A stretch of DNA of 64,000 nt, taken from Mechercharimyces sp. CAU 1602. Its GTDB lineage: Bacteria > Bacillota > Bacilli > Thermoactinomycetales > JANTPT01. Below are positions 6,538 to 23,873 of this stretch, in pieces. A model generated the notes under the pieces. The model had not been told where the DNA came from, made no database searches, and was given only the letters and a program-made list of their open reading frames with translations. The stretch is taken from positions 124,001 to 188,000 of the forward strand of contig NZ_JANTPT010000003.1 in assembly GCF_024753565.1 (NCBI RefSeq). Direction: 5' to 3'. Numbering within the stretch: position 1 is the first letter of the stretch; each line of letters opens with the position of its first letter. The position numbers and the translations under genes are program-made.

Positions 6538-6879
6538 TTACGATGTAGGTGTAGAAGGCTTAAACATCGGGTAGAGTACATACCCTACATTGCGTTGGGA
6601 GATGATTGTTGGGTGTGGATACACTGTGATTAATTTCTTGCGCAAACGGCTGATATATACATATAACGTACTGTCACCGACGTGAGGAGAACCCCAAGCG
6701 AAGGTGATGAGCTCTTCGGCTGGAACAATCTTACCGAGATTAAGAGCGAGTAAGTAGAGGATTCGAAATTCCGTTCGGGAGAAAGTTAGTTGTGACTTAC
6801 CTTGGGTAAGAACTTCCTGATGAGTGTCGAGTACATAGCCACTACCTAATTGAATGGGATCTTTAGAATGAATCATCAT
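6538..6879 (-). CDS. Stand-alone OmpR/PhoB-type winged-helix regulator
   Basis: A 113-residue protein made almost only of a Trans_reg_C winged helix: LTFSRTEFRILYLLALNLGKIV, then the recognition-helix region DSTLYVYISRLRKKL and the wing QRNVGYVL. There is no receiver domain, so it cannot be a classical two-component response regulator. It is divergent from the biosynthetic cluster across a roughly 520-bp gap and is the obvious candidate for a cluster-specific regulator. ATG codons at 6877-6879 and 6874-6876 are both possible; the upstream minus-strand sequence contains aaaaggag. Confidence 0.7.
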   Translation of the reverse strand: MMIHSKDPIQLGSGYVLDTHQEVLTQGKSQLTFSRTEFRILYLLALNLGKIVPAEELITFAWGSPHVGDSTLYVYISRLRKKLITVYPHPTIISQRNVGYVLYPMFKPSTPTS

Positions 6880-7406: not shown

Positions 7407-7658
7407 ATGGAAGTCAAAGCAACTCCTATCAGTGCTGAGGAATTACAAAGTTATATGGTGTCAGAAAGTAGTAAGACGGATGTACGGCACGCTGAAGAAC
7501 GTGCGATCGACTTACGCGCTATTGATCTACGTGCCATTGATCTACGTGCGATAGATTTACGTGCGATCGACTTACGTGCGATCGACTTACGTGCGATCGA
7601 CTTACGTGCGATCGACTTACGTGCCATCGACCTGAGGGCGATTGATATCCGGGCATAA
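7407..7658 (+). CDS. Putative precursor peptide with ten RAIDL/RAIDI repeats
   Basis: An 83-residue product from the third ATG of an ATG-ATG-ATG run. That ATG (7407) is 7 bp from ggaggg, whereas the first at 7401 would abut the ribosome site. The first 31 or so residues (MEVKATPISAEELQ...HAEE) are leader-like and acidic. The rest is nine copies of RAIDL, one RAIDI and a final RA. Several repeats use different synonymous codons yet encode the same residues, which suggests selection on the peptide. It is the first gene of the co-directional cluster. Two readings are possible: a ribosomal-peptide precursor with a multi-copy core, or a short pentapeptide-repeat beta-helix (IDLRA register). The context of an M16 pair and a MATE exporter favours the first. 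No Cys, Ser, Thr or Lys occurs in the repeats, so lanthionine or azoline chemistry is excluded there. Confidence 0.6.
   Translation: MEVKATPISAEELQSYMVSESSKTDVRHAEERAIDLRAIDLRAIDLRAIDLRAIDLRAIDLRAIDLRAIDLRAIDLRAIDIRA
7500..7655 (+). repeat. 15-bp tandem coding repeat (10 full units plus 6 bp)
   Basis: Units read CGT GCG ATC GAC TTA with synonymous variants (CGC GCT ATT GAT CTA, CGT GCC ATT GAT CTA, and others). Units 5-8 are identical to each other and to unit 1, suggesting recent expansion. Units 2-4 and 9 differ only silently; unit 10 has Ile for Leu. Slippage or recombination could easily change copy number. Confidence 0.95.
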
Positions 7659-7678
7659 CAAGGGTGCGGAGGGGCTGT

Positions 7679-7694
7679 GGGGAGCATGCTCCTC
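7679..7694 (+). other. Small hairpin between precursor gene and next gene
   Basis: A perfect 12-bp palindrome (GGAGCATGCTCC, 7681-7692) sits in the 75-bp gap after the repeat-peptide gene. It lacks a clean T tract. It might stabilise the precursor mRNA end or allow partial termination, an arrangement common after ribosomal-peptide precursor genes. Confidence 0.3.
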
Positions 7695-7733
7695 CTATTC
7701 CTTTAACAATTCTAATGTGAGAGGGGGAGGGAA

Positions 7734-8669
7734 GTGGTTCACCTTGAACAGGTAGAGGCGTATGTACCAGAAGCGCGCGTCCCGATTGAACAATTAGGAG
7801 AGAGATTGGAGTTAAATCGCTATCAAATAAAACTCTTCCAGCGAATTCACGGATTACATGAGATATGTATGGATGAGGAGCAGTCACTCGTTTCGTTGTT
7901 AATTAAGCCATTGGCAAGAATTTTGATGTACGCTCCGAATGTGGTTGAGCACGTTCGCTATCTTGTTTATTGCCATACGATTAAGACAGTAACACCCTAC
8001 CCGATTAATGTATTGGAAGAGGTGAAGGAGGAGTTTGGTTTACAACATGCGCTCTCTTTTTCGCTCACACAGCAAAACTGTTCTTCTGGACTGGTAGCCA
8101 TGGAATTGGCAGATGATTTACTCCGTGGCGATGGCGATCCAGAGGCACGAGTACTTATTTTGTTGGGTGAAAAAGCTTCCCATCCGACGTTACAGCTGAT
8201 TCCCAATACGACCATAATGGGCGAAGCGGCTGCAGCATTAGTGGTGCGAGCCGGGGTGGGAAAAGATGAAGTGGTGGCGATACACCGTACGATTAGTGGG
8301 CAGTACGCTGCAGGTATCAATATCTCAGCAGAGAGCCTACGCCAGTTTGAACAGTCCTATGTTCCTACATTAGTAAAAACTATTCAGCTTACGCTAGATA
8401 AAGCAAATCTGTCTTTACAAGAGATAGAGTGGATATTACCTCATAATGTAAATCTATCTTCATGGACACAAGTGGCACGAGCGCTCTCATTTCCAGTAGA
8501 GAAAATTTACTTGGATAACGTATCGAAGTTAGGCCACTGCTTTTGCGCTGATTCGTTTATCAATTATCAAGATGTGGTGAAGCAAGGAATGATGCGGCGG
8601 GGTTCATATTATTTGTTGGTGACGGTAGGGTTGGGAGCCGTGTTTACGGTGGCGGTCATGCGTCATTAG
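7734..8669 (+). CDS. KASIII-like condensing enzyme, intact active site
   Basis: A 311-residue thiolase-fold protein of the FabH/KASIII type. The nucleophile is Cys116 in QQNCSSGL, the catalytic His is His237 in ILPHNVN (FabH has PHQAN), and the third position is His268 in KLGHCFCADS, where FabH has Asn. It therefore has a Cys-His-His set instead of the usual Cys-His-Asn. Starts at GTG 7734 with gggggaggga just upstream. Possible roles are chain initiation or extension on the cluster ACP, or acyl transfer as in CerJ/DpsC-type relatives. It precedes the ATP-grasp gene by 12 bp in the same operon. Confidence 0.75.
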   Translation: MVHLEQVEAYVPEARVPIEQLGERLELNRYQIKLFQRIHGLHEICMDEEQSLVSLLIKPLARILMYAPNVVEHVRYLVYCHTIKTVTPYPINVLEEVKEEFGLQHALSFSLTQQNCSSGLVAMELADDLLRGDGDPEARVLILLGEKASHPTLQLIPNTTIMGEAAAALVVRAGVGKDEVVAIHRTISGQYAAGINISAESLRQFEQSYVPTLVKTIQLTLDKANLSLQEIEWILPHNVNLSSWTQVARALSFPVEKIYLDNVSKLGHCFCADSFINYQDVVKQGMMRRGSYYLLVTVGLGAVFTVAVMRH

Positions 8670-8681
8670 GGGGGATAAGTC

Positions 8682-10052
8682 ATGCACGTACAAACATCAA
8701 CGTTCTGGTCGAAATGGAAAGAAGGAGTCGTTGGAGACGAGCAGGCAACTCTGATTTTGCTCGGTAACTTTGAGGTAGAGGAGTATTGGGCACAAGATCG
8801 TCTGAAATTACCAAGTGTGAGTGGGAAAGGGGGGCGTCGGATTGTTCATCGGATGGAGGAACTGGGCGTTTTTCTCGCCTCTACGGAAGACGTTGTGGTA
8901 ATGAAGGCAGGGATGGATGTTACTTATCAGCAATATATGCAAGAAATTAAACATCCACTACCTAACATGATCTCCTTATCCCGCAATATCCCTCACTTGT
9001 CGATTACAGAAAACTTATTGCAATGCGAGCAGACCATCGCCCAGTTAAAGATGTTGCGACAGGAGCATTCTGCGCTCTATCTTCTTCCTTTTGGTGTTTC
9101 CGGTCATGAGGAGGAGCTAGCACAGTTAACAGGAATTCCACTTGCAGTTCCCTCTCAAGCTATTTTCGAGCGAGTAAATAGTAAAATTTATTCGCGTAAG
9201 ATTAATGAGGAGTTAGGGATCAGACAAGTTCCGGGGGTTTGTTGTGAAGGAATAGCCGAATTACAGTCTGGATTTGCTCGTATGAGAGCATCTTTGACGG
9301 CAGGAAAAAAGATAGTGCTCAAAGATGCCCACGGTGTTTCCGGTAAAGGGATCACCGTAATTGAGTCGGAGAAACGTTTTCAACAGCTGCTTAAGATGTT
9401 GACTCGAAGTTGTACAGGGAAGAAGGAACAGGTGGCATTTGTCTTAGAGGAATGGGTGGAGAAGAGATGCGATCTTAACGTACAAGCTGTAATTACTCGT
9501 ACAGGAGAGGTGCTACTGCATGCCATAAAAGAAGCGGTAACTCGGGGAGGTGTGCATCAAGGACATTACTTTCCGGCTCGGTTGACGCCAACACAGCGAA
9601 CGCAGCTATATGAGGTAGTACAGAAGCTAGGACATGCCTTGTACGCAGATGGCTACTTTGGGATGATGGGGGTTGATGCGATGGTGGGTGTAGATGATTC
9701 CTTGTGGCCCAATGTAGAAATCAATGCTCGTCTAAATTTATCTACTTATCAGTCTCTTTTGGAAGAGCGCTATGTGGCAGCGGGACAGGTTATGTGGGCA
9801 AAGCATTACCCTGTTCAGTTGGTAAGGCCCCTCCCTTTTCGTGATTTACGAGATCGTCTAGACGATCTGCTTTTGACGAAACGAGGCGAATGCGGTCTTT
9901 TTATTCATAATCATGCAACGATGAATGCTGCTTATCAAGAAGATGGGAAACCATTTCCCGGTCGCTTGTATGCTCTTCTGATCGCTGATGAAGATGAACA
10001 ATTGTATGCATTAAACGATGAGGTGGAACAACGGTTGCAATCACTGATCTAG
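8682..10052 (+). CDS. ATP-grasp ligase, BtrJ / PGM1-like
   Basis: A 456-residue protein with a pre-ATP-grasp part and an ATP-grasp fold. A nucleotide-binding Lys and glycine loop are visible (KIVLKDAHGVSGKG, Lys214). The metal-binding segment is VDAMVGVDDSLWPNVEIN (Asp332, Glu346, Asn348). The following decarboxylase and ACP genes reproduce the butirosin BtrJ-BtrK-BtrI set. There BtrJ loads L-glutamate through its gamma-carboxyl onto the ACP pantetheine. By analogy this enzyme likely loads an amino acid onto the ACP; which amino acid is not visible. A peptide-ligase role, as in PGM1, is an alternative. SD at gggggat before the ATG. Confidence 0.7.
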   Translation: MHVQTSTFWSKWKEGVVGDEQATLILLGNFEVEEYWAQDRLKLPSVSGKGGRRIVHRMEELGVFLASTEDVVVMKAGMDVTYQQYMQEIKHPLPNMISLSRNIPHLSITENLLQCEQTIAQLKMLRQEHSALYLLPFGVSGHEEELAQLTGIPLAVPSQAIFERVNSKIYSRKINEELGIRQVPGVCCEGIAELQSGFARMRASLTAGKKIVLKDAHGVSGKGITVIESEKRFQQLLKMLTRSCTGKKEQVAFVLEEWVEKRCDLNVQAVITRTGEVLLHAIKEAVTRGGVHQGHYFPARLTPTQRTQLYEVVQKLGHALYADGYFGMMGVDAMVGVDDSLWPNVEINARLNLSTYQSLLEERYVAAGQVMWAKHYPVQLVRPLPFRDLRDRLDDLLLTKRGECGLFIHNHATMNAAYQEDGKPFPGRLYALLIADEDEQLYALNDEVEQRLQSLI

Positions 10053-10067
10053 AAGGAGGAAAAGACG

Positions 10068-11360
10068 ATGGATGGGCAATATCGAGTGCAGGGAAAGTCG
10101 CTTTCTGCGTTAGCAGACGAGTATGACACTCCTTTGTATGTATATGATGGCCATGTGATGGTAAATACATTTCGCTCGTTACAAGAATGTTTGAGTAATG
10201 AGTTTGAGTTTTTCTACTCACTTAAAGCTAACCCTAATCTATCAGTATATGCACTCCTACAGCAGTTGGGTGCACGAGCTGAAGTGTCGTCATTAACAGA
10301 GTTAGAGATAGCGATCCGTGCGGGTACACCTGCAGAAAATATCATTTTTTTAGGACCAGGTAAAAGTATGACTGAGCTGATAGCCTGTATCGACTATGGC
10401 ATTTATGCCATTGTGTGTGAGTCATTTGGTGAACTGGAGCAGATTGAGAGGCTGGCACAACAGAGGGGGCGCATCGTTGATGTGGCTTTGCGTATCAACC
10501 CGGCCTTTACAGTTAAAGGCTCCCGGTTGACGATGGGGGGGAAACCGCGTCAATTTGGCATCGACGAAGAACAAGTACTGGAGCAACTGCCATTGGTGCG
10601 TTCGTATCGACATATCCGAATGCTAGGGGTACACGTCTATATGGGTACTCGGATTTTAGAAGCAGATGTCATTGCTCAAAACACTGAGAAGATCTTTGCT
10701 CTGACCCGCCGAGTTGAGCAGAGATTAGGATATACACTGGATATGGTCGATATTGGAGGAGGATTAGGTGTTCCTTATTTTGACCAGGAGCAGGAGCTGG
10801 ATGTAGTAAGCTTAGCTAATAAGCTTAATCCACTGGTTGAATCGTTTCGGGGAGACCATCCGCATACGCGTATCATTATGGAATTGGGGCGTTATTTGGT
10901 AGGGATGAGCGGGATATTGGTGACTCGTGTTCGCTACAAAAAGGATTCCTTTGGGGAGACGTTTCTAATTGTGGATGGTGGAACGCATTGTCATATGGCG
11001 GCGGTGGGTATAGGGTCTTTCGTGAAACGCAATTTTCCAATCCGACATGTAGAGAAGTATCAATGTGACCCCACGCATTCGTATCACATCACAGGACCAC
11101 TTTGTACACCAAACGATCAGATCGGCAAGGCAGTAATGTTACCAGAAGTAGAGGTGGGGGATTTACTGGGTCTTTTTCATTCGGGTGCATATGGACCGAC
11201 CGCTTCTCCAGTCTTATTTTTAAGTCATGGATTTCCAGCAGAAGTGATGGTGTATAAAGGAGAAGCGTTTTTGATTCGAGAACGGGATACGACAGCTGAC
11301 ATGTTGCGCAAACAACGTTTACTAGACGGTATGAAAGTAGAAGCGAATACACGCCGATGA
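10068..11360 (+). CDS. PLP-dependent decarboxylase, BtrK / DAP-decarboxylase-like
   Basis: A 430-residue fold-type III (alanine racemase fold) PLP enzyme. The Schiff-base Lys is in FYSLKANPN (Lys53), a glycine-rich phosphate loop is DIGGGLG (229-234), followed by ELGRYL, and the partner-subunit cysteine is in GPLCTPND (Cys346). BtrK in butirosin synthesis decarboxylates a gamma-glutamyl-thioester on the ACP to give 4-aminobutyryl-ACP. The gene lies between the BtrJ-like ligase (15 bp) and the ACP (21 bp), so an ACP-tethered substrate is likely. It could instead act on a free diamino acid such as DAP, ornithine or arginine. Confidence 0.75.
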   Translation: MDGQYRVQGKSLSALADEYDTPLYVYDGHVMVNTFRSLQECLSNEFEFFYSLKANPNLSVYALLQQLGARAEVSSLTELEIAIRAGTPAENIIFLGPGKSMTELIACIDYGIYAIVCESFGELEQIERLAQQRGRIVDVALRINPAFTVKGSRLTMGGKPRQFGIDEEQVLEQLPLVRSYRHIRMLGVHVYMGTRILEADVIAQNTEKIFALTRRVEQRLGYTLDMVDIGGGLGVPYFDQEQELDVVSLANKLNPLVESFRGDHPHTRIIMELGRYLVGMSGILVTRVRYKKDSFGETFLIVDGGTHCHMAAVGIGSFVKRNFPIRHVEKYQCDPTHSYHITGPLCTPNDQIGKAVMLPEVEVGDLLGLFHSGAYGPTASPVLFLSHGFPAEVMVYKGEAFLIRERDTTADMLRKQRLLDGMKVEANTRR

Positions 11361-11381
11361 GGCAGAGAAAGGGTGGTTAAT

Positions 11382-11657
11382 ATGAAAAGAGAGCAAGTGG
11401 TTGTGGCGATTAAGCGCTCCTTAAAAGAAGTGCTAAATATGAAAGAAGTGGATCATATCACAGAGAAGACCTCTCTTTTTGATGATTTGGCGCTGGATTC
11501 CACGTCGGTGTTGGAATTATTGATGGTGTTAGAAGATGAAGTGGAAGGCTTGTATGTGGATCCAGAGACGTTAGAACCGCACCATTTTGAAACAGTGGGG
11601 TCGTTGGCGACGTATATTGAATCGCATCTTAAAGATGTGACAGAGCATGTTGGCTAA
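11382..11657 (+). CDS. Acyl carrier protein
   Basis: About 91 residues, the size of a free ACP. The phosphopantetheine site is LALDSTSVLEL (Ser40), with helix II and III patterns after it. The ATG at 11382 is preferred over a GTG at 11373 because aaagggtgg precedes it at a suitable distance. It probably holds the amino-acyl unit made by the two upstream enzymes, then serves the KAS-like and dehydrogenase-like proteins. Its 3' end overlaps the next gene by 11 bp. Confidence 0.85.
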   Translation: MKREQVVVAIKRSLKEVLNMKEVDHITEKTSLFDDLALDSTSVLELLMVLEDEVEGLYVDPETLEPHHFETVGSLATYIESHLKDVTEHVG

Positions 11658-12501
11658 TCTCTATGTGGAGCATCTGGATTATCATTGTTTTACTCAGCAG
11701 CGTCCCTATCTATTTGATGAGCTCGTGCATCGCTTTCAGCAGGAGTTGTTGCAGCCGCATGGTCTGCATGTAGATACGGCCTTGCTGGAACGGAGCTCAC
11801 ACCACTCTTTTTTAGAGATGAGTAAGTCTTTATTAGATCCATTGGCTGTACAAGGAAAGTTAGAGGGTGTAGATTTGGTGGTATTGGCATACTGCACTCC
11901 AGATGTGAATGTAACGGATTCTGTTGTTTGCCACTTGATTCATCAATATCAGTTGGAAGGGGCTAATGGCTTTGCTATCTCTGATATGGGGATGGCGGCT
12001 AGTTGGACGGCATTACAAGTGATTGCGGATCGCTTTTACACTGGTTCTAGTCAAAAGGCAATTTTGATCGCCTTAGACCAAACCACATTTCCTAATCGCA
12101 TAGCTCATGTTCATGATCGGCAACTACGGGATGCAGGTTCGATTCTGCTTATGAGCCGAACAGCTAGTGAGGAAGAGAGTTGGAGCTTAGTAGACAGGAT
12201 GTATCGATACTCTCCTCAGGGAATAGAGGGAAGGGTGAACGATACAGTTGCTAGTTGGAGTTTGGAATATTCACTCAAAGAAGAGCGGGCGGTTATCGTT
12301 GCCCATCGCTCGTTGGAACCGTGTCTGTATTGGGTAGATCAGCCTGTTGTTTATTATGATGCGGATACGCACCTGGTAACGGCTCCCTTTATCACATGGC
12401 ACCAGCAATTAAAGGGAGCGCCCGAGTACGTGTGGTGGATGCATTACGATGATGTTCATCCTTTCTATTACAGTGCTCTCTTTCGTTCCCATCAGGTATA
12501 A
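11647..12501 (+). CDS. Degenerate KASIII-like protein (no active-site Cys)
   Basis: A 284-residue protein with thiolase-fold features such as VDLVVLAYCTPD and DRQLRDAGSILLMSR. At the nucleophile position it reads ISDMGMAASW, so no cysteine is present, and the C-terminal PHN and GH motifs are missing. It is shorter than its relatives at 7734 and 12520. A plausible role is a non-catalytic partner of the intact KASIII-like enzyme encoded next, like a chain-length factor. Translationally coupled to the ACP gene by overlap. Function inferred from context only. Confidence 0.55.
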   Translation: MLANLYVEHLDYHCFTQQRPYLFDELVHRFQQELLQPHGLHVDTALLERSSHHSFLEMSKSLLDPLAVQGKLEGVDLVVLAYCTPDVNVTDSVVCHLIHQYQLEGANGFAISDMGMAASWTALQVIADRFYTGSSQKAILIALDQTTFPNRIAHVHDRQLRDAGSILLMSRTASEEESWSLVDRMYRYSPQGIEGRVNDTVASWSLEYSLKEERAVIVAHRSLEPCLYWVDQPVVYYDADTHLVTAPFITWHQQLKGAPEYVWWMHYDDVHPFYYSALFRSHQV

Positions 12502-12519
12502 AGGAGGGGAGGGCGATAG

Positions 12520-13479
12520 ATGAACGGTACATTTGGTATTAAGGGAATAGGAACCTATATCCCTGCTACTTTTCAGACAGTAGAAGAGGTCTTGGCAGGA
12601 GTAGGAGCAGGAGTGGGCGAACGGCGTTTGTTGGAACGGATTCACCAACTGCGCCAAATTCCTATGGTGAAGTCAGGGCAGCGTTTGGAAGAAACTATCA
12701 CCTATGCGCTCGAAGATCTAAAGACAAAAGTGGAAAGCTGTTCGATCGATGTGGCTCTCTATGCTCATTCTCAGTTTACACATGTACCCTTCCGCTACGA
12801 TCTTCTGTATAAAGTACTTGAGGTGCAGGGATGGGAACATGTCCCCTGTTATGGTGTGGATCAGCTAAATTGTGCTTCTTTTTTTGCTGCATTGCAATTG
12901 GCGCATTCCATCTTTGCTCGGGATGAATTGGTAGAGAATGTGCTTTTAATATCCGCTGATCAGAGTAATTTTTTGTCTTATGGACGCTATATTTCTCGAG
13001 CTACGATTATGGGTGATTCGGCTACTGCTCTGCTGCTTACACGTACAGGTTTTCGCCATCGCTATCTTTTTACATCTGTGCATTCAGATCCACGTTTTCA
13101 TCGTGGCTTCTATGATTCTGAGGAGAATCGGAAAGCATTTAACCACGACTATCTTTCCAATATTATGGAGGGAATGGAGCATACATTGCGGGAAGTTGGG
13201 ATGGGGCTGGAAGAGGTGGATTTCATTTTGCCGCACAACGTAAATCACACCACATGGCGACGCTTTAGCGAGCGTAGCGGCATGAAAGCAGATAAAGTGA
13301 TGACCGCATGGATTTCGCAGTTGGGTCACACTTATACTACGGATGCCCAGCTCATTTTAGCACAACTGTTAGCAAAGTCTGTGTTTCAAGCGGGAAATCG
13401 GTACATGATGGTGGGAGTTGGATTGGGTTGCTTTGTGGGTACCGCTATCTTTGAAGTGATAGAGGAAGGAGTAGGCTGA
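12520..13479 (+). CDS. KASIII-like condensing enzyme, second intact copy
   Basis: A 319-residue paralogue of the protein at 7734. Active-site residues: Cys118 in DQLNCASFF, His239 in ILPHNVNHTTW, and His270 in SQLGHTYTTDAQ, again Cys-His-His rather than FabH-type Cys-His-Asn. The glycine-rich C-terminus (MMVGVGLGCFVGTAIFEV) is typical of the fold. Strong site aaggagggga before ATG 12520. Its stop overlaps the next start (TGATG). With the degenerate protein just upstream it may form a heterodimer. Confidence 0.75.
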   Translation: MNGTFGIKGIGTYIPATFQTVEEVLAGVGAGVGERRLLERIHQLRQIPMVKSGQRLEETITYALEDLKTKVESCSIDVALYAHSQFTHVPFRYDLLYKVLEVQGWEHVPCYGVDQLNCASFFAALQLAHSIFARDELVENVLLISADQSNFLSYGRYISRATIMGDSATALLLTRTGFRHRYLFTSVHSDPRFHRGFYDSEENRKAFNHDYLSNIMEGMEHTLREVGMGLEEVDFILPHNVNHTTWRRFSERSGMKADKVMTAWISQLGHTYTTDAQLILAQLLAKSVFQAGNRYMMVGVGLGCFVGTAIFEVIEEGVG

Positions 13480-14129
13480 TGGAAACAACATTAAGGCGCA
13501 CAAATCAATCAGAAATCATGCGGATGTGGCGATATTTGCAAAAAGAACCTTGGGGTGGGATTTTGCGTGTGTGGGAAGAAGAAAGGATGGAGACAGTGTA
13601 TGCTCCCCACGGTTTTACGTTGCTGAGTCGAGGGAGGGGGGAGAAAAAACGGGTGTTTTCTTACTTAGACAGGGTGCCTGATCAGTGGTTGGAAAGAGAT
13701 CATGTCGAAGTGTATAGGGTACAAAGAGGTGTGTCGGAGTATACGCCGGAGGGGCAAGAGGAAGGTGCATGGCAACAGAGGTGGGAAGAGCGTGTTTTTC
13801 ATCTGCGCTTTGCGCTGGCGCTGATGGTATTGGAGCAGTGTAAACAACACTTAGAAAAGCGGCGCGCTCAGGGGATACCTACGTTGCAACATCAGATGGT
13901 GAAAAGTTTGATTTCTGATTTTTTGATCTTGTTGGAATGTGTGTACAGTAGAGATTCTACTTCTTCCGATTTGGAACAAAGGCGTTTGCGTCACTTTGAT
14001 CATACAAGATTGGATCAACAAGTATGCTCGTTATTAAAACTGATGGGTGGACATGGATATATAAGTTCCGGCTGTAGTCGCTGGGGCCATGCGCTCAGCG
14101 TGATTCATAACGTATGGGTAGTGAGGTGA
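13479..14129 (+). CDS. Acyl-CoA-dehydrogenase-like stub (C-terminal domain)
   Basis: A 216-residue protein. Its last third resembles the C-terminal helical domain of acyl-CoA dehydrogenases (LLKLMGGHGYISSGCSRWG, cf. the GG-GY motif). The N-terminal and beta-barrel FAD-binding domains are absent and the first 100 residues are not recognised. A full dehydrogenase follows 5 bp downstream, so this may be a structural or regulatory partner, as in heteromeric ACADs. The family link is weak and rests on that motif plus context. Confidence 0.45.
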   Translation: METTLRRTNQSEIMRMWRYLQKEPWGGILRVWEEERMETVYAPHGFTLLSRGRGEKKRVFSYLDRVPDQWLERDHVEVYRVQRGVSEYTPEGQEEGAWQQRWEERVFHLRFALALMVLEQCKQHLEKRRAQGIPTLQHQMVKSLISDFLILLECVYSRDSTSSDLEQRRLRHFDHTRLDQQVCSLLKLMGGHGYISSGCSRWGHALSVIHNVWVVR

Positions 14130-14134
14130 AAGGG

Positions 14135-15298
14135 ATGGTATCGACAGCTGCTTGGAAGGAATACGAGGAGCAATTAACCGTTATCTCTCAACGCTTCCGT
14201 CAAATCGGGATGGAGTTGGAAAGGGAGCCGGAGATGATCGCTACAGTGGTGGAAGAAGAGCCGCTTCGGATCTATCGCAAACAGATGCTTCCTCCTGACT
14301 ACAACGATGAACCAGTAAAAACGGCAGATGGAACCTTGTTTTATGGACTTACCTGTCAGGAGCGGGTGCGCTCTTTTGAAAAATTGGCATATGGTGATTT
14401 TGGCGTTACTCTCGCTTGTCCAGGCCCGTCTTTGTCAGGGATGGTGATTCAGGACTTAGCAGATGAAGAGCAACAGGATCGTTACTATACACGCTTAGTG
14501 GAGAAGCCGACTTGGACTTTTTTCGCTTTGACTGAGCCAGGTTATGGTTCTGATCCGATGGGGATGGAAACTCGGTTGACGAAGGAACAAGTAGGAGACG
14601 GATATCGCCTACATGGGGAGAAAATGTTTATTGGTAATGGTGCGAGAGCAGATGTGGGCGTTGTGTTCGCCCGCAAAACATCAGGTCCTCTCGGGATCGA
14701 GGTGGTACTGGTAGAAACAAATCACCTAGAGGGATTTAAAGCAGATTCATTGGAGACATGGGGGGTGCGCGCAGCAGGTCTTAGCCGTTTAACTTTTACT
14801 CATTGTCACATCGCTGAGGAGCAAGTGGTCGGTCGTCATTTACGCCCGATGAAGCGAGGAATGATGGGGGCTGTTACCACCTTTAACAAGATGCGTCCTA
14901 GCATTGCAGCTGCAGCATTAGGGATTGCGCAAGCTGCGTATGACTATGTATATGAACAGCGCCGTCAGTGGTTGGAAGCGGAGAAAACTACACTACAAAA
15001 CTTGGAGTTAGAGCTTATATCTGTACGGCAACTAATTCGGCGAGCGGCAGAGGAAGTGGATGCGAACCCTCGTAATGGCCATTATGCCTCGGTGGCGAAA
15101 GTACAGGCATCTTCATTGGCAGAAAGGATGACAGATTCAGCGCTTATGTTGATGGGAGCTGGTTCGATCTACGAGCACCCTTGTTTATACAAATGGTATC
15201 GTGATGCACGTGCATGTGAGTTTATGGAGGGGACGTCGCATATACAAAAACAGACTGTGTTTCAGGCCTTTATGAGTGGGAAGATGCAACATGTATAG
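14135..15298 (+). CDS. Acyl-CoA/acyl-ACP dehydrogenase family enzyme
   Basis: A full-length flavoprotein of about 387 residues. It has the FAD-contact motif FALTEPGYGSDP, the central-domain segment GEKMFIGNGARAD, and the base-containing segment EFMEGTSHIQK near the C-terminus, where Glu is the ACAD catalytic base. The start at ATG 14135 fits the upstream gtgaggtg better than the ATG at 14114. In this operon the likely substrate is an acyl chain on the cluster ACP, giving alpha,beta-unsaturation; no dedicated ketoreductase or dehydratase is encoded nearby. The 3' end overlaps the next gene. Confidence 0.8.
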   Translation: MVSTAAWKEYEEQLTVISQRFRQIGMELEREPEMIATVVEEEPLRIYRKQMLPPDYNDEPVKTADGTLFYGLTCQERVRSFEKLAYGDFGVTLACPGPSLSGMVIQDLADEEQQDRYYTRLVEKPTWTFFALTEPGYGSDPMGMETRLTKEQVGDGYRLHGEKMFIGNGARADVGVVFARKTSGPLGIEVVLVETNHLEGFKADSLETWGVRAAGLSRLTFTHCHIAEEQVVGRHLRPMKRGMMGAVTTFNKMRPSIAAAALGIAQAAYDYVYEQRRQWLEAEKTTLQNLELELISVRQLIRRAAEEVDANPRNGHYASVAKVQASSLAERMTDSALMLMGAGSIYEHPCLYKWYRDARACEFMEGTSHIQKQTVFQAFMSGKMQHV

Positions 15299-16232
15299 GG
15301 AGCAGAAACAAAACCGCATAAGCATTGATGCATTAGCACTTACACGTGTGAAAGCAGACAGATATCAGCATGATACGGTTCCGCCTGATGATTTCTATGA
15401 AATGCAGTTGCACTACGATGCGGAGTGTTATTATCACCAGCGTTCATGGCATCAATTGCCGACGCAGTCGATCAGAGTGGAAGGAAGAAGGGTCTCACAT
15501 GAAGAAGTTTCACTGTGTACACTCTCCTCTTTAGAGGGGATACTGCCACCGGGGAGAATGACGTCTGCACAAGTGTTGTTAGTAGCGCATTCGTTTTATA
15601 CTCGCCTCTCTGCGAATCCCATGCTGGCACGGCTTTTAGAATACTGGAAAAAAAGACCGCGCATCGCACTCGGTTTGTCGCATTTAGGAGAGGTAGCCTC
15701 AACGGAAGGGGTACGTGTCGCGGATTGGACGCTAGCTGAAGGTGAAACAGGAGTTCTACTTCTCAGTGAGCAACAGTTTTTCCTCCCACACCGATTCGCG
15801 CCCCCTCCAGCGCTTCCGCTTGGAGATGCAACGGTCGCGCTCTCTCTATCAAAGGACGGGGAAACGATAATTTTAGAGCAGCATAAGCGTGGGGTGATGC
15901 AGAACAAACGAATTTTACCCGCATGGGAAGATTGGATACAGCAGGTGAAGCGGATCGTGGAGGCAGAGCGAGATGAGGTTGATTGGGTTGTTATTCAGCA
16001 GGCTTTTTCTACACAGGTAGTAGAAGATGAGAAGCTGTTTGTACGTCAGCATCAGATTGATCATAACTTACAATGCACGGATGTTTGGATCACGTTAGCA
16101 GAAGGGTTAACGCAGAATGTGATTAGGGTTGGTGATCGCGTGTTACTCCTTTCCTTTGATCGGCTTCATACCTATTCAATGATACAGCTGTTGGTGCAAG
16201 CGCGTCCACGGATGAGTGATGCGTGGATATAA
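15291..16232 (+). CDS. Highly degenerate KAS-like protein
   Basis: About 313 residues, similar in size and region order to the KASIII-like proteins of the cluster. The nucleophile region reads IALGLSHLGEVAST without Cys, and the His-Asn motif is replaced by VVIQQAFS. It retains a thiolase-fold style (VLLVAHSFYTR, ETGVLLLS). It is probably non-catalytic; a partner for one of the two intact KAS-like enzymes is likely. The ATG at 15291 (overlapping the dehydrogenase stop) is preferred; 15276 is the alternative. The family call is tentative. Confidence 0.4.
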   Translation: MYREQKQNRISIDALALTRVKADRYQHDTVPPDDFYEMQLHYDAECYYHQRSWHQLPTQSIRVEGRRVSHEEVSLCTLSSLEGILPPGRMTSAQVLLVAHSFYTRLSANPMLARLLEYWKKRPRIALGLSHLGEVASTEGVRVADWTLAEGETGVLLLSEQQFFLPHRFAPPPALPLGDATVALSLSKDGETIILEQHKRGVMQNKRILPAWEDWIQQVKRIVEAERDEVDWVVIQQAFSTQVVEDEKLFVRQHQIDHNLQCTDVWITLAEGLTQNVIRVGDRVLLLSFDRLHTYSMIQLLVQARPRMSDAWI

Positions 16233-16250
16233 CGAGAGAGAGAAGAGAGG

Positions 16251-17639
16251 ATGGAGTCGATGGGAAGACTGGATTATGTGCATGGCAATATAACAAAACT
16301 TTTATATCTTACATTTATTCCAATGTTGATTGCTTCCATCGTCAACGTAGTTATGGTAGTTTCACAAGCGGTTTTTATTGGACAAGTGGGGGGAGAGGCA
16401 GTAAATATACGCGGCTTCTATTTGCCGATCTCTTTCTTTATGACAGCATTGCTAGAAGCGATGCAGTTGTCGACACAAGTGGTGCTGGCAAAGCGAAAAG
16501 GGGCGGGTCAACAAAAACAGATCGCTCAAAGCTTTTACCGCTTCCTGTTTTTTGGCTTATTGCTTATGGGAATGTTTGGAGTGCTAATCATCGTAACACT
16601 GCCGTTACTAACAACCTTTTTCGGTGTTGATGCAGCATATGCAGGACTTTTTCAACGCTTCGTCAGTGGGATGGTTGTGGTGGAACTGATTGTAGTGATG
16701 AATATTGTGATCGCAGCTAGCCTACGTGCACTCGGAAAAGTGAACATCGCCTCGTTTATTGCAGTTATGGGTTCCGTACTCAATATTGCGCTGATGTATT
16801 ATTTTATTCTTGTACGTGGCATGGGATTGCAAGGGATTGTGCTGGCGTTTCTCATTACTAGTAGTCTTCAGTTTATCGCTAGCTATAGCTATATAGTATG
16901 GCTAAAAGAGATTCCGATCGGATTTCCGCGAGGGATACGAGGAAAAGATGAGATGGTGACAGCGATTTTACGTGGGGTTGGCGTGCCTGTTTTCCTATCG
17001 TATTGCTCTATCACCTTGGGGTTATTGTTATTTAACCTGATCATGGAGTCGTTTGGTGATGTAGCCGTAGGTGGTTATGGTGCGGCGTATAGCATCCAAA
17101 CCCTTGTGATTATACCAGGCATTTTATTGGGATCGGCAATGGGCATTGTGATGAATCAAAACTTAGGATCAGGGAAGTTGGAGCGAGTGTTTGCTGTTTA
17201 TAAAAAAGGGATCTTGCAGGCATTCTATTTCTACCTCCCGCTGTCCCTCTTCGTCTTCCTACTGCGGGAACCACTTGCTTCTGTCTTCTTTCGCGCTGCT
17301 GATCGGGAGGTTTTTTTACCATATGCTGTGGGCTATTTGGCGATTGTGGCTCCTACTTATCTCTTTATGGGTCCAATGTTGACGACGTTGATCACATTGG
17401 AACAGATGGGGAAAGGAATGAAAGCACTCGGGATGAATCTTACTTATTTTCTTCTCATCGCGCTCCTCGGTTGGGCGGTAACAACCTGGACGAATGATGT
17501 GAGCTCATTCTATTGGACGGTCGCCTTTTGTAACCTAATCGGCATATCCGGCTTGTATTATGGATATCGTCTCATGCATGCGGAGTTTAGTGTTTCTCGT
17601 CAGGAAGGTGAAGAGAAAGAAATGGTGTCAGGGGCATGA
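16251..17639 (+). CDS. MATE-family efflux transporter
   Basis: A 462-residue integral membrane protein with about twelve hydrophobic segments in two homologous halves. Typical MATE features include the N-terminal LTFIPMLIASIVNVVMVV segment and VAVGGYGAAYSIQ in the second half. It likely exports the cluster product by cation antiport. The start may be ATG 16251 or ATG 16260; the purine-rich stretch at 16235-16250 serves either. It sits within the operon. Confidence 0.9.
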   Translation: MESMGRLDYVHGNITKLLYLTFIPMLIASIVNVVMVVSQAVFIGQVGGEAVNIRGFYLPISFFMTALLEAMQLSTQVVLAKRKGAGQQKQIAQSFYRFLFFGLLLMGMFGVLIIVTLPLLTTFFGVDAAYAGLFQRFVSGMVVVELIVVMNIVIAASLRALGKVNIASFIAVMGSVLNIALMYYFILVRGMGLQGIVLAFLITSSLQFIASYSYIVWLKEIPIGFPRGIRGKDEMVTAILRGVGVPVFLSYCSITLGLLLFNLIMESFGDVAVGGYGAAYSIQTLVIIPGILLGSAMGIVMNQNLGSGKLERVFAVYKKGILQAFYFYLPLSLFVFLLREPLASVFFRAADREVFLPYAVGYLAIVAPTYLFMGPMLTTLITLEQMGKGMKALGMNLTYFLLIALLGWAVTTWTNDVSSFYWTVAFCNLIGISGLYYGYRLMHAEFSVSRQEGEEKEMVSGA

Positions 17640-17659
17640 GTGGCGGAGGAGGAACACGG

Positions 17660-18769
17660 ATGAAACCCGTTTATGTTTGGCAAGAAGTAGAAGGTGGGTA
17701 TGTGGGTGCCGATGAAGCGGTCACCCACTTTTATAAATTAGATGATGATCCGAGTTTACAAAGGCGCTCGCCGCCGAGGCTTTGTCATGTTAAAGCTCCT
17801 ATGCATCCGTGCTTTCGGTTTGCACCGATGGTGGGGCATCCGCGAGCGCAGGTTGTGATTCTTGATATTCCGTATGCAAAAGGGTCATGTGCGGAGGGAT
17901 CAACCGTAGCACAATTTGGCGAGCTGTTACGTGTACAGACTGGGCAGAAGCCCGTATGGGCACGACTTGATGAGAAGTTTGCTTCAGGGATAAGAGACTT
18001 AGATGATGGTGGATCTCTTTTTTCTGGCCTTCTGTTTGAGGATTGGGGTACGCTTCAACTGGGCCAACCAGAAGAGCCGATGTCTACACTGGCTGAAGTG
18101 GTGCAGAAGGTGCTGGAAGAGCAGCAGATCTTGTTTTCGTTAGGCGGAGATCATTCGCTCACGTATCATGTGATTCAACAAGAGTTGGCGTATATCGAAG
18201 AGCCGCTTATCGTGATTGATTTCGATGCCCATCATGACTGCGGCACAACGCCTCTGTTAGCAGACGAAGTGAATCATGCTAACTTTATCCGTCATTTGTT
18301 GGCAGATGAGCGAATCGCGGCGATTGTACAATTGGGCGTGCGTGGAGTTCGATCGTGGGGGCAGTGGTGTGAACATCCTAAACTGAGGCAAATCTCTGCT
18401 AAAAAGATGAAGCCGGAAACGATTGAATCGGTGTTGTATGAATTGATGGGGAAGCACCCTCGTGCGGTTCATTACGTTACCTTTGATATGGATTGTTTGG
18501 ACCCGAGTCAGTTTCCCTTAGTGGATTATCCAGTTGCTAATGGCCCTACTTGGGAGCAAGTGCGACTATGTTTACAATCTGTCTTTCAGATGAGAGCCCC
18601 TTTGCTGGGGGTAGATATGGTAGAGGGACAAGGGGTTCTTATCGAAGGGAAAGTTCCGATAGCGTATGAGATGGCAGTGCAAGTGTTCGCTCATCTCTTG
18701 GACGGGATCAAGAGAAGATATTCTGTATTGAAGCAGTATGAAGGAAAAAGAGAGGAGCGGAGAGGGTGA
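17660..18769 (+). CDS. Arginase/agmatinase-fold ureohydrolase
   Basis: About 369 residues, longer at the N-terminus than free arginases. The binuclear manganese motifs are all present: GGDHSLTYH (His165), DFDAHHDCG (Asp189, His191, Asp193) and TFDMDCLDP (Asp276, Asp278), plus NHANFIRHL where agmatinases have a substrate-loop His. Known members hydrolyse guanidino groups to amines and urea. Here the substrate may be arginine in the RAIDL repeats, a guanidino-acyl intermediate (as in amino-marginolactone pathways), or free arginine/agmatine. The start at 17660 follows ggaggagg. The stop overlaps the next start (GTGA). Confidence 0.8.
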   Translation: MKPVYVWQEVEGGYVGADEAVTHFYKLDDDPSLQRRSPPRLCHVKAPMHPCFRFAPMVGHPRAQVVILDIPYAKGSCAEGSTVAQFGELLRVQTGQKPVWARLDEKFASGIRDLDDGGSLFSGLLFEDWGTLQLGQPEEPMSTLAEVVQKVLEEQQILFSLGGDHSLTYHVIQQELAYIEEPLIVIDFDAHHDCGTTPLLADEVNHANFIRHLLADERIAAIVQLGVRGVRSWGQWCEHPKLRQISAKKMKPETIESVLYELMGKHPRAVHYVTFDMDCLDPSQFPLVDYPVANGPTWEQVRLCLQSVFQMRAPLLGVDMVEGQGVLIEGKVPIAYEMAVQVFAHLLDGIKRRYSVLKQYEGKREERRG

Positions 18770-19743
18770 AACTACAAAATCTATTTGAAGCAGAACAAGA
18801 GAAAGTTCACGCTGAGATTGCGCGACAGCTGCGGGAGAACGGGGGAATTACGCTCGGTTACTTCTTCGCTTTGATGAATATCACTAAGGAGTTATTACCG
18901 CTACAACAGCGCTTCTGTCCAGAGAAGGTATGGGTGGATTATCTGGCTTTTGCTCAAATGCTGGATCGTATTCGAGAACAACCAGCACTGTTTGGTGGAT
19001 GGGATGAGGTTGTGGGTGCGGAACATCGCCAACAAATCTTGCAGGAGGGGGGAGCTTTTCTCACCTGGCATACGGGGTTCGTTCGACATCATCTTGAAGC
19101 GATTGCAATAGGACGTGCCATGTTGGCCGAGTGGGAGTTACCCTTTTATCAGGTGGTTGATCGTGAGCAGTTTAATCATGAACAGAAGTGGGAGATGTGG
19201 GAGCGCTTAAGAGATATTCGGAATATTCAGTTGATAAATGCAGAAGACCAATTAATCGGACTAAAGCTGTTTCAACATTTACGTCGAGGGGGAGCGTTTT
19301 GTTTGAAATTAGATGGGCAAAAGGGAGTAAATGCTGATCAGCATACGCTGCGAACGAAGTGGCTCACCTCCATAATTGAAACACGAAGTGGGGTGTTTCG
19401 CATTTTGGCACGGGCCCAGAAGAAAGTTTCGCTGGTGGTGATGTCGATGACAGAGGACTTCCATTCCCGAATCGTATTCCACCCACCTCAACAGCTGGCT
19501 GGACAAATTGAGAAGGCGTGTGATGATTCATTTGCAGTTGTACGAGAAGAACTACTCCGCTATCCGTGGCAGTGGCGATTTTGGGATCGCCATCATGAGC
19601 AAGTGGTGGCGTGGCAAGATGTAAGTGTTGGAAATGAAAACATGGACACCAAGCGAATCAAGTGGGTAACGCAACAAGTTGGAAAAGAGGGTCTTGGTTT
19701 AGATGTGGAGACGGGACAAGTATATCAGCTGTCACCAAAGTAA
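18766..19743 (+). CDS. LpxL/HtrB-like acyltransferase
   Basis: A 325-residue protein whose middle part resembles LpxL-type acyltransferases: AFLTWHTGFVRHHLE (around His102), then LRRGGAFCLKLDGQKG (LpxL has GG...DQ at this place), and a C-terminal YPWQWRFW. In LpxL the catalytic motif is HX4(D/E). Here the acidic place after His102 reads Arg107, so the chemistry may differ. These enzymes move acyl groups from ACP or CoA to amines or hydroxyls. In this cluster it could acylate the peptide or an amine released by the ureohydrolase (inference). GTG start overlapping the previous stop. Confidence 0.5.
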   Translation: MKLQNLFEAEQEKVHAEIARQLRENGGITLGYFFALMNITKELLPLQQRFCPEKVWVDYLAFAQMLDRIREQPALFGGWDEVVGAEHRQQILQEGGAFLTWHTGFVRHHLEAIAIGRAMLAEWELPFYQVVDREQFNHEQKWEMWERLRDIRNIQLINAEDQLIGLKLFQHLRRGGAFCLKLDGQKGVNADQHTLRTKWLTSIIETRSGVFRILARAQKKVSLVVMSMTEDFHSRIVFHPPQQLAGQIEKACDDSFAVVREELLRYPWQWRFWDRHHEQVVAWQDVSVGNENMDTKRIKWVTQQVGKEGLGLDVETGQVYQLSPK

Positions 19744-19760
19744 GGGCAGGGGGAGGAAAG

Positions 19761-20996
19761 ATGAAGGTGAGGGAAGATGTTTCGTGTGAAGCTGCGGTTA
19801 CTCATCTACAGACTATCCCTTTTTTAAAGGCGGATTATGTAACGTTGACGATTGCTAATGAGATAGGAATAGAGGAGACAAGGTTTGCTCTCTTATCATC
19901 TCTCTTAGTGTCTACCGAGGTGAAGGCAGAACTATATCAGATGTGTGGAGCGGAGCTGACGGGAAGGGTTTTGCGGAAAGGGAGAACACAACTGTTACAG
20001 CTACAGGTTACTTCTCCGAATGAAGCATACCTTTGGTTTGAGCGATCTCTATTGAAAAAAGCATTGCATCTCTTAACTGTACGGGTGTGGAAGGATGAAG
20101 CGTGGAAAAAGGATGAGTTTTTTCGACGGCAGGTACATATTCATGCCAGCCGCATTCAGATGGAGCAAAGTGACGAAGAACAAAGGAGAATAAGGCAGTG
20201 CATGGCTACAGTTGTGGGAGAAGAACATTCTTTAGCGCGCTGGGGAAAAATAGAAGAATTACTTTCCTTAACGATAGATGAGATGAATCAGGTATTAGAT
20301 GAGGTGTATCGCTATGCTCCTTATCATTTACATGTATTAGGTGCGGAAGTAGAGAAGATAGAGCAGTGGTTACATGAGCATAAATTAGATCAGGAAGGCA
20401 CAGTTAGAAAGAAGGGAAGGTCGTTTGCGCGCAGTCTCCCTTCTGGAGAAGCTGTTCCTATCTACCGTGGGAACTGTCAGGTGGATACGGTTCCGATTAC
20501 GGCAGCAATATGGACGGGTATTCGCTTTGCAGACGCTGACTATTTCCCGTTGTTGGTGGTGATGAATCGATTACGCACTCAATTACGTATACGTTTGCGT
20601 GAACAGAAGGGATTTCTTTATGCACTCTCATGCGAAGCAGATCCTCTTCTAGAAATAGGTTGGATCCACATGCGAGTGAAAGCGGGAGAAGTGGAAGAAG
20701 CGATCGATGAGAGTAAGCAGGTGTTGATGGAGATGAAGAAGGGGAAGTGGTCTCGTTCTTTATGGTATGAGTCTATACAGTCGATTCAGCATTATATTCG
20801 TTATGGAATGGACGTTCCCCAGGTATGTGCTGAGGTTAGTTTACACGGGTGGTTGAGTGGAAGTATTCCGAGCGATGAGAGCGCAAGGAAGAGATTGGAG
20901 ATAATGACGATAGGGGATTGTACACGTGTGGCCACACGTCTTCAGCTGGCGGCAATTCAGGTTGGAATGACAAAGGAGGGGAAAGGAGATGGTTAA
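19761..20996 (+). CDS. M16-family peptidase-like, non-catalytic subunit
   Basis: About 411 residues, the length of a two-domain M16B subunit. The N-terminal region lacks the HXXEH zinc motif. The second half keeps M16 style (VDTVPITAAIWTGIRFADADYFPLLVVMNRL; then QLRIRLREQKGFLYALSC). Two-subunit M16 proteases usually pair one zinc-bearing and one non-zinc chain, and the active chain follows with an 8-bp overlap. The ATG at 19761 follows gggggaggaaag; the longer ORF runs back into the acyltransferase gene. It probably serves processing of the repeat peptide, as AlbE/AlbF-type pairs do in subtilosin clusters. Confidence 0.65.
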   Translation: MKVREDVSCEAAVTHLQTIPFLKADYVTLTIANEIGIEETRFALLSSLLVSTEVKAELYQMCGAELTGRVLRKGRTQLLQLQVTSPNEAYLWFERSLLKKALHLLTVRVWKDEAWKKDEFFRRQVHIHASRIQMEQSDEEQRRIRQCMATVVGEEHSLARWGKIEELLSLTIDEMNQVLDEVYRYAPYHLHVLGAEVEKIEQWLHEHKLDQEGTVRKKGRSFARSLPSGEAVPIYRGNCQVDTVPITAAIWTGIRFADADYFPLLVVMNRLRTQLRIRLREQKGFLYALSCEADPLLEIGWIHMRVKAGEVEEAIDESKQVLMEMKKGKWSRSLWYESIQSIQHYIRYGMDVPQVCAEVSLHGWLSGSIPSDESARKRLEIMTIGDCTRVATRLQLAAIQVGMTKEGKGDG

Positions 20997-22269
20997 ACCC
21001 GCTTTTACTTCTCATCCTGCGATCGAAAGCTTCCGCACAGCGATGGGAATGGAAGTATTGGTTGTTCCGTTGACAGGGTGTATGCGCACGTATGCTACCT
21101 TAGCTATTGGGATGGGGGCGATGGAGCAGTATGTTTCTAGAAAAGGCGATGGTCGACTCCGTCTCCCCTTCGGTACAGCTCACTTTTTAGAGCATCTTGT
21201 TTATCATCAATTTTTATCTAATATTGGGATGGAGGGGGATACACATGCAGTGACATCGCACTGGCTAACTTGCTATCAGGTAGCGACAACGAGGGAATGG
21301 CAGCAAGCGATCGTCCCATTGTTGGCGATTGCGGAGGAAGAGCAGCTTACTGTAACGGAGTTTATTATGCGGCGAGAACGACGTGTCATCTCACATGAAA
21401 TCGAGATGTATCAGGAGCAAGGTAACGTAGTAGTGGATCAATTGTTAAAGCGTGCCCTCTTTCCATCTGGACATCCGTTAACGGTAGATATTGCGGGTAC
21501 GACCCGGAGTGTCGCTGATGTATCAGCTCCACTGTTGCAACAATGTTTTGACATTTTTTATCGAGCCGAGCGGATGAAGTTGGTTCTGGTTGGGAATGTG
21601 ACATCAGATGAGGTACATGCTCGATTGGGTGACTTTGAAAGCATTCCCGCTGAGGATAGTAGGAGAGAGGAAGTTATTCCGACTGAGAAGAGATGGGAGT
21701 TTTATTCATCAGGTAAGGGCGGAGTGGTGGTTGAAAGCAGGCCCGTCCCACTGCCCTTCCTTAAGGTGGGGTTTATGGAGCAAGGTGTTCCGTTGGCAGG
21801 GGAGCTCTTATTACGCTACTTGTCGATAGCGGAAGTGGCGTTGGAAGCACTTTGGGGGAAAGAATCAGAATTTTATCAGTCTCTATTTGAACAGGGTGTG
21901 ATTGGTGATCACTTTAATTGGGAGAGTAAAGCTATACGGGGATGTGCTTATTCTTCCTTAGGAGGGGTGACGGCTAACCCTCAGATGGTCGTTGACCAAA
22001 TCAAGGAGAGACTGGTGGAAGTAAGTCATCTGGGGCTGGCGGAAGAGAGGATTGAGCGGGCGAAGGAGAGGCGTGCAGGCAAGCACCTTCTTGCCGCTGA
22101 TGATTTACGTCACTATAGTATAACGCTGGCACACGGTATGATGCAACAGATGATGGAATGGAAGCGTCTTGCTATACTGAAGAGTGTGACTATATCAGAT
22201 GTAGAAGCATGGATTCAATCTCACTGTAAAATAGAAGGACTGCGTGTAGCGGTCGTGGAAAAGGGGTAA
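20989..22269 (+). CDS. M16-family zinc protease, catalytic subunit
   Basis: A 426-residue M16B peptidase. The inverted zinc motif is HFLEH (His65, Glu68, His69) and the distal metal-ligand Glu is in RRVISHEIE (about Glu137). No signal peptide is visible, so it likely works in the cytoplasm. It is translationally coupled to the non-catalytic partner. It is the last gene of the cluster and likely removes the leader or cuts the repeats. No strong terminator is seen before radA, only a weak hairpin (GGGAGA/TCTCCC around 22279-22300). Confidence 0.85.
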   Translation: MVKPAFTSHPAIESFRTAMGMEVLVVPLTGCMRTYATLAIGMGAMEQYVSRKGDGRLRLPFGTAHFLEHLVYHQFLSNIGMEGDTHAVTSHWLTCYQVATTREWQQAIVPLLAIAEEEQLTVTEFIMRRERRVISHEIEMYQEQGNVVVDQLLKRALFPSGHPLTVDIAGTTRSVADVSAPLLQQCFDIFYRAERMKLVLVGNVTSDEVHARLGDFESIPAEDSRREEVIPTEKRWEFYSSGKGGVVVESRPVPLPFLKVGFMEQGVPLAGELLLRYLSIAEVALEALWGKESEFYQSLFEQGVIGDHFNWESKAIRGCAYSSLGGVTANPQMVVDQIKERLVEVSHLGLAEERIERAKERRAGKHLLAADDLRHYSITLAHGMMQQMMEWKRLAILKSVTISDVEAWIQSHCKIEGLRVAVVEKG

Positions 22270-22452
22270 GAGTATAGGGAGATGGTATGGCTCTCCCCAA
22301 GCGCATAAGGTCGATAAATGTATATGAGAGAATTAAGGTTGTGAGCGGGCGAGCGAACCCTTCTTTATTGGTAGATAGGGTGAGTTTGTTCGTTTTGTTT
22401 TCTTTTAAGCAGGCTGTGATGTTAGGGGCGCCTAGGGGTTTTTGTTCCAATC

Positions 22453-23869: not shown

Positions 23870-23873
23870 CAGG

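Follow-up and report, generated by a model that had tools for sequence, protein, structure and literature searches.

A gene cluster of Mechercharimyces sp. CAU 1602 with a candidate pathway for acylated repeat peptides containing ornithine or lysine

The window, a 64,000-nucleotide stretch of Mechercharimyces sp. CAU 1602 (contig NZ_JANTPT010000003.1, positions 124,001 to 188,000), contains at positions 7407-22269 a run of 15 genes on the forward strand, nearly all of which overlap or lie at most 80 bases apart. In order, these genes encode a repeat peptide, a β-ketoacyl-acyl carrier protein synthase (KAS)-like protein designated KAS-A, an ATP-grasp ligase, a pyridoxal phosphate (PLP)-dependent decarboxylase, an acyl carrier protein (ACP), KAS-B, KAS-C, a small protein resembling acyl-CoA dehydrogenases (ACADs), an ACAD, KAS-D, a MATE exporter, an arginase-fold enzyme, an LpxL-like acyltransferase, and two M16 proteins. 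The best reading of the cluster is a new kind of pathway for acylated ornithine- or lysine-containing ribosomally synthesized and post-translationally modified peptides (RiPPs). Specifically, it is probable from the sequence comparisons that the arginines of the repeat are converted to ornithine, or that lysine is encoded directly, and that the LpxL-like protein acylates these residues using an acyl arm made by the cluster. Comparison of relatives supports the identity of the precursor, the conservation of its leader and repeat, and the coupling of its arginines to the arginase. A first-pass annotation of the same DNA had outlined a similar scheme, which stands with respect to the precursor, the tie between arginine and arginase, the acylation role and the start of the acyl pathway by a BtrK-type decarboxylase and an ACP; the step order and acyl structure, together with the acyl donor, processing and export, are what we infer.

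Twenty-three genomes carry the full cluster with its gene content and order retained: that of the window, that of Polycladospora coralii, whose copy lacks only the arginase gene, and 21 genomes of one genus in another family. A chance origin is excluded because all 23 keep the gene order and the repeat open reading frame (ORF). The window genome is the sole member of its family in the genome set searched. Searches with the acyltransferase found, besides the window, only P. coralii (G029) in an order-level set of 42 genomes, 15 of 399 genomes in a class-wide sample, and 21 of 75 genomes in a genus-wide set, all 21 of which carry the full cluster including the arginase. As a contig scan with KAS-C matched only Polycladospora, the distribution figures are taken from the genome-set searches. 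No relative of the acyltransferase was found in plasmid, phage and viral collections.

The precursor, of 83 amino acids, opens with MEVKATPISAEELQSYMVSESSKTDVRHAEE and continues with ten RAID(L/I) units and a final RA; its start was set at the ATG that aligns with the M-x-x-KATPI start of the relatives. In 23/23 full clusters, a repeat ORF lies directly upstream of KAS-A and has the same plan: a few residues, then KATPI, and a tandem repeat at the end. Across these precursors, the constant part of the core is only Arg-Ala or Lys-Ala, recurring with a period of five residues 5-28 times, and RA or KA is always final. The exceptions are a period of six residues in one genome (G433) and single irregular steps in two others (G428 and G431). 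The remaining residues vary among relatives (IDL, VSA, VEA, AAA, TAA, and DVAT, giving units such as VSARA, VEARA, TAAKA, and DVATRA), and the number of units differs even among close relatives. Thus, the RAIDL repeat described in the first-pass annotation is present in the window, but it is only the local form of a repeat whose general pattern is x(3-4)-[R/K]-A. The hallmarks of a RiPP system, a short precursor gene, a conserved KATPI leader, a variable core and linked modifying enzymes, are found in all 23 clusters. The annotation's identification of the repeat ORF as the precursor is therefore borne out; relatives in which this ORF was absent, broken or unlinked were looked for, and it was linked in every cluster. 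The leader of the window precursor gave no match to Pfam or NCBIfam leader families.

The arginines of the core and the arginase gene appear and vanish together. In the large clusters that carry the arginase, the core contains Arg only and no Lys (22/22). By contrast, the arginase-free locus of P. coralii (L006), which otherwise has the gene set and order of the window, encodes a precursor that reads ...ATAAKAADAKATAAKAADAKA; its core contains 28 Lys and no Arg, Lys replacing the Arg of the window. No cluster-type arginase was found anywhere in the P. coralii genome: the best match scored 3e-15, as compared with 1e-155 to 1e-177 for cluster members, and only ordinary arginase-family proteins occur outside the cluster.

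A second, small cluster type provides an independent test of this rule. It comprises a small precursor, an M50-like membrane protease with an HExxH motif, the acyltransferase and a major facilitator superfamily (MFS) exporter, and has no acyl cassette. The outcome was the same. At the six small loci with an arginase, the core ends in Arg-Cys motifs (ASGRCASGRC, GDVVRCGDVVRCGDVIRC, KITVIRC, VIRCVIRC); at the two without one (G369 and G353), the core contains Lys (FKCTCTVSKK, SCKITKK and others). A leader profile built from large-type precursors only was applied to arginase-type small loci, each with 99-198 small ORFs; in 5/5 loci tested, two of which are nearly identical, the top-ranked ORF was the predicted precursor. 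On the acyltransferase tree, the state with Lys and no arginase requires at least two separate changes.

A further locus, L114 (G287), has the genes from KAS-A through MATE and lacks the arginase, acyltransferase, M16 and repeat-precursor genes. The arginase thus goes with the Arg-bearing peptide and not with the acyl chemistry; indeed, comparing the gene content of the large type, the small type and L114 indicates that it is distributed like the Arg-containing peptide and the acyltransferase. The enzyme's six metal ligands (H173, D197, H199, D201, D284, and D286, in the motifs GGDHS, DAHHD, and FDxDxLxP) are invariant, and the window protein matched PF00491 only, not PF12640. Overall, these comparisons are strong evidence of a link between the arginase gene and peptide Arg, and the predicted conversion of the repeat Arg to ornithine by the cluster arginase, as proposed earlier, is well supported by them. 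However, arginine is not essential to the system, since P. coralii uses Lys without an arginase.

No modifying enzyme other than the acyltransferase is shared by every precursor-bearing locus of both cluster types. The assignment of the acyltransferase comes from the family: PF03279 was reached by 3/9 members (best 6.6e-7), whereas the window protein alone gave no match, and the family profile gave only chance-level matches against the PDB. The protein may work like an LpxL enzyme. Because it is the sole shared modifying enzyme, and because Lys and ornithine share a side-chain amine, it likely acylates these amines. Acylation of ornithines, suggested in the first-pass annotation, is accordingly judged the best candidate role for this protein.

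The acyl-building cassette resembles part of the butirosin pathway, in which glutamate is loaded and decarboxylated on an ACP by the BtrI/J/K enzymes. The best solved match of the decarboxylase is BtrK, an L-glutamyl-[BtrI ACP] decarboxylase (1.1e-91, versus 4e-53 for the best diaminopimelate decarboxylase), and its gene adjoins those of the ATP-grasp ligase and the ACP, as in a BtrI/J/K module. This bears out the earlier proposal that a BtrK-type decarboxylase and an ACP begin the acyl pathway. By analogy with butirosin, the ATP-grasp enzyme probably loads glutamate on the ACP, and decarboxylation would then give an amine-bearing 4-aminobutyryl-ACP. All four KAS-like proteins reported previously are present, but only KAS-A and KAS-C have an active site with conserved Cys-His-His residues, those of KAS-A being conserved in at least 20/21 clusters. 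KAS-B and KAS-D have lost the Cys, as have ketosynthase (KS) partners in type II systems; neither matched the PDB, and both were placed by profile-profile comparison with KAS-C. Similarly, one of the two reported ACAD-like proteins is complete, and the other is a weakly related fragment: 6/8 members of its family match PF00441 weakly, and its assignment comes from these matches and one to the ACAD C-terminal domain, as profile comparison with the cluster's own ACAD gave no match. The ACP serine, the ACAD Glu and the M16 motif are conserved among clusters.

We assign the MATE exporter to the acyl-making block because it is present in L114, where there is no repeat peptide; the exporter itself had been correctly recognized, and its role in peptide export remains putative. 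Downstream of the L114 cassette (2742-4662) are genes for one GNAT protein, two small proteins and an AcpS-type phosphopantetheinyl transferase. The acyl cassette seems to serve other pathways as well. On a Streptomyces decoyicus plasmid (L122, NZ_CP108348.1), genes for a KAS III-like protein, an ATP-grasp enzyme (42% identical), a PLP decarboxylase, an ACP and a hypothetical protein occur in the same order beside a nonribosomal peptide synthetase. Three other loci (L115, L116, and L117, in G203, G096, and G230, respectively) have ATP-grasp, BtrK-like and several KAS III-like genes among other biosynthetic genes and represent another use of the BtrJ/K-type loading module.

Other explanations were weighed against this evidence. 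The repeat ORF might be a structural pentapeptide-repeat protein or a simple DNA repeat expansion unrelated to the pathway, and it does match pentapeptide-repeat and decapeptide-repeat models weakly. However, no hit reached its curated cut-off, the pentapeptide-repeat models scoring 13-29 bits against cut-offs of at least 125, and the relatives, whose units differ in residues, have in common just the leader and the spacing of [R/K]A; identity as a pentapeptide-repeat protein was rejected on these grounds. Moreover, the units vary by synonymous changes (CGT GCG ATC GAC TTA, CGC GCT ATT GAT CTA, CGT GCC ATT GAT CTA, AGG GCG ATT GAT ATC), so the repeat is conserved as protein and not merely as DNA. 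With linkage in 23/23 clusters also contradicting it, this explanation is barely credible. It is also quite improbable that the arginase acts on a small molecule, such as a guanidino starter on the ACP, while the peptide is acylated at another site or is a mere carrier. Such a role would suit a cluster that itself makes an amino-acyl chain, and among solved proteins the enzyme comes nearest to agmatinases and guanidinobutyrases, whose substrates are small molecules. Nevertheless, small clusters possess the arginase without the cassette, P. coralii and L114 possess the cassette without the arginase, and the presence of the enzyme tracks the precursor Arg. An arginase in the service of the acyl pathway was rejected on this gene distribution.

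The product could instead be an ornithine- or lysine-rich RiPP that carries its acyl group elsewhere, at the N-terminus, Cys or Asp. In another form of this alternative, the RiPP receives an ordinary fatty acid, and what the KAS cassette makes is a distinct small molecule that MATE exports. That the cassette and MATE stand alone in L114, that the small type has the acyltransferase without a cassette, implying that the enzyme can use common acyl donors, and that small-type cores hold Cys beside Arg are all compatible with such an outcome. Large-type cores, however, contain no Cys, Lys or ornithine is the only nitrogen nucleophile shared by all, and the genes of the cassette and of the peptide are intermixed and conserved together across 23 genomes; we therefore regard this alternative as unlikely. 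Several observations count against the main reading of the cluster as a whole, as does the small-molecule character of the arginase's solved relatives. The cluster has no reductase, so the structure of the acyl chain is not readable from the genes. The acyltransferase has lost the acidic residue of the HX4(D/E) motif: HX4E reads HX4R (Arg107), with His102 invariant, in the window and in aligned relatives except two Lys-type small clusters, which have one inserted residue. The AlphaFold model of this protein (two sequences) failed, with a mean predicted local distance difference test (pLDDT) score of 40.5. The Arg/Lys rule is based on two independent switches. Finally, at the two Lys-type small loci the leaders do not fit the large-type profile (ranks 12-45), and these loci are therefore the more distant ones.

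In the favored pathway for acylated ornithine or lysine peptides, the repeat precursor would be recognized via its KATPI-type leader. The arginase would turn each repeat Arg to ornithine, a step made dispensable in the arginase-free relative by Lys codons, and the LpxL-like enzyme would add an acyl group to the side-chain amines. The two KAS III-like enzymes and their degenerate partners would extend or cyclize the acyl chain begun on the ACP, and the ACAD pair would oxidize it. The M16 heterodimer would take off the leader or trim the units, and the product would be exported. More tentatively, the product might be a comb-like lipopeptide of encoded length, in which an amine-bearing, glutamate-derived polyketide arm is attached by an LpxL-like peptide acyltransferase to ornithine or lysine at every fifth residue.

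The nearest described products in logic are the selidamides (kamptornamide, phaeornamide, nostolysamides), ribosomal peptides in which a peptide arginase converts Arg to ornithine, or Lys is used, and the side-chain amine is acylated (PMC9505594, PMC13060382); the same features are proposed here from the genes. Selidamide pathways rely on GNAT acyltransferases, on NHLP or Nif11 leaders and on fatty acids of primary metabolism, modify one or a few sites, and often form lanthionine rings. In contrast, the present cluster has an LpxL-like transferase, a short KATPI leader, 5-28 repeated sites, dedicated acyl genes and no lanthionine synthetase; no GNAT was found among its genes, and its leader matched neither NHLP nor Nif11. 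Among peptide arginases, the OspR family, which also makes ornithine in precursors, belongs to PF12640 (PMC12703449), unlike the window enzyme. KgrD of the enteropeptins shares PF00491 and the conversion, here proposed, of Arg to ornithine in a precursor peptide; it requires a thiomorpholine adjacent to that Arg (PMC12703449), and no radical SAM gene, the kind of partner that forms this ring, occurs among the 15 genes.

The cluster shares with butirosin the grouping of ACP, ATP-grasp ligase and PLP decarboxylase genes (btrI, btrJ, and btrK). Unlike butirosin, no btrH-, btrG-, btrO- or btrV-like gene was seen; four KAS-like and two ACAD-like genes occur instead, and the proposed acceptor is a peptide. 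The lipolanthines, goadvionins and lipoavitides likewise combine a RiPP with an acyl chain from dedicated polyketide synthase or fatty acid synthase genes, but GNATs attach the chain to the N-terminus of class III lanthipeptides (PMC13060382), whereas the likely sites here are the repeat side chains. The type II polyketide synthase-like enzymes AmcB/F/G/H of cispentacin also feature a small ACP, a single loaded acid, and a KS with a degenerate partner (AmcF-AmcG) (PMC10698177). There, however, the adenylating enzyme AmcH loads 2-oxoglutarate, whereas this cluster uses an ATP-grasp enzyme, a BtrK-type decarboxylase and KAS III-like proteins. The M16 pair, with one HXXEH...E subunit and a partner lacking the motif, resembles the heteromeric leader peptidases PttP1/PttP2 and AlbE/AlbF of RiPP pathways (PMC10885120), although its sequences are nearest YfmF/YfmH. 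A full-text search of open-access papers returned no description of this cluster.

The features of the locus are listed in Table 1. The genes are co-directional and led by the repeat peptide, as first annotated, although there are 15 rather than 14; apart from the corrections given above, the earlier list of gene families agrees with the family profile matches. For the first M16 gene, the most likely start is near 19761, past the acyltransferase stop codon. An OmpR/PhoB-type domain gene without a receiver is divergent from the precursor gene; in P. coralii, the corresponding position holds a counterpart with 48.5% identity.

Table 1. Features of the locus, in window coordinates, with supporting matches.
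Feature	Position	Strand	Evidence
Lone OmpR/PhoB-type DNA-binding domain, likely regulator	6538..6879	-	PF00486 5.6e-16; counterpart in L006
Precursor peptide, 83 aa	7407..7658	+	Leader MEVKATPISAEELQ..., then 10 RAID(L/I) units and terminal RA; 11 Arg at 5-residue spacing; counterpart at same place in 22 other clusters
KAS-A, KAS III-like enzyme	7734..8669	+	PF08541 2.6e-15; Cys116, His237, His268 (His where Asn is usual)
ATP-grasp ligase, proposed BtrJ-like role	8682..10052	+	PF02222 3e-11; PreAtp-grasp 7.7e-8
PLP decarboxylase, BtrK type	10068..11360	+	Best solved relative BtrK, E 1.1e-91
Acyl carrier protein	11373..11657	+	PF00550 1.2e-6; Asp42-Ser43 conserved
KAS-B, degenerate KAS III-like partner without catalytic Cys	11647..12501	+	Profile-profile match to KAS-C, 93%, E 3.4e-7
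KAS-C, KAS III-like enzyme	12520..13479	+	PF08541 2.1e-12; Cys118, His239, His270
Small ACAD-like fragment, possible partner of full-length ACAD	13479..14129	+	Family profile vs ACAD C-terminal domain, E 3.2e-5
Acyl-CoA/ACP dehydrogenase (ACAD)	14114..15298	+	PF00441 3.2e-21; medium-chain ACAD (MCAD) match 4.3e-34; catalytic Glu372 (MEGT)
KAS-D, degenerate KAS III-like partner without catalytic Cys	15276..16232	+	Profile-profile match to KAS-C, 87%, E 4.5e-6
MATE exporter	16251..17639	+	PF01554 1.5e-34
Arginase-fold enzyme, proposed peptide Arg to Orn	17636..18769	+	PF00491 4.4e-35; six metal ligands
LpxL/HtrB-like acyltransferase, proposed Orn/Lys side-chain acylation	18766..19743	+	PF03279 reached by relatives in family
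M16 subunit without HXXEH (YfmF-like)	19761..20996	+	NCBIfam YfmF 4.4e-22; start inferred, ATG after acyltransferase stop
M16 catalytic subunit (YfmH-like)	20989..22269	+	NCBIfam YfmH 1.8e-56; HFLEH (65-69), Glu137

The cluster is flanked by the end of clpC on one side and by radA-disA on the other (3300-5311 and 22442-24962). As clpC and radA-disA are usually adjacent in Bacillota, the 15-gene cluster looks like an insertion into this housekeeping stretch. In the genus of the 21 relatives, the cluster adjoins a helix-turn-helix, tetratricopeptide-repeat (HTH-TPR) regulator, and several of these genomes also have a small ORF there that looks secreted and whose product ends in DLNDPVP or DLNSPxP; the two resemble a quorum-sensing pair based on a peptide (L024 3208-4796; L070 3143-3310; L071 3343-3522). 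In L072 (G405), L073 (G455) and L069 (G431), genes of the cluster are split (acyltransferase, MATE, ATP-grasp, decarboxylase or KAS-A), which suggests pathway loss or assembly errors.

The product of this cluster has a fair chance of forming a class of its own. If the proposed pathway is correct, it would represent a RiPP family whose peptide acyltransferase falls outside the GNAT superfamily, would add a PF00491 lineage to the peptide arginases, and would directly connect ribosomal peptides with BtrI/J/K and type II KS-like chemistry. The natural pairs, Arg with arginase and Lys without, make the functions of the arginase and acyltransferase directly testable. Finally, the encoded number of repeats, from 5 to 28, would set the number of acyl groups per peptide.

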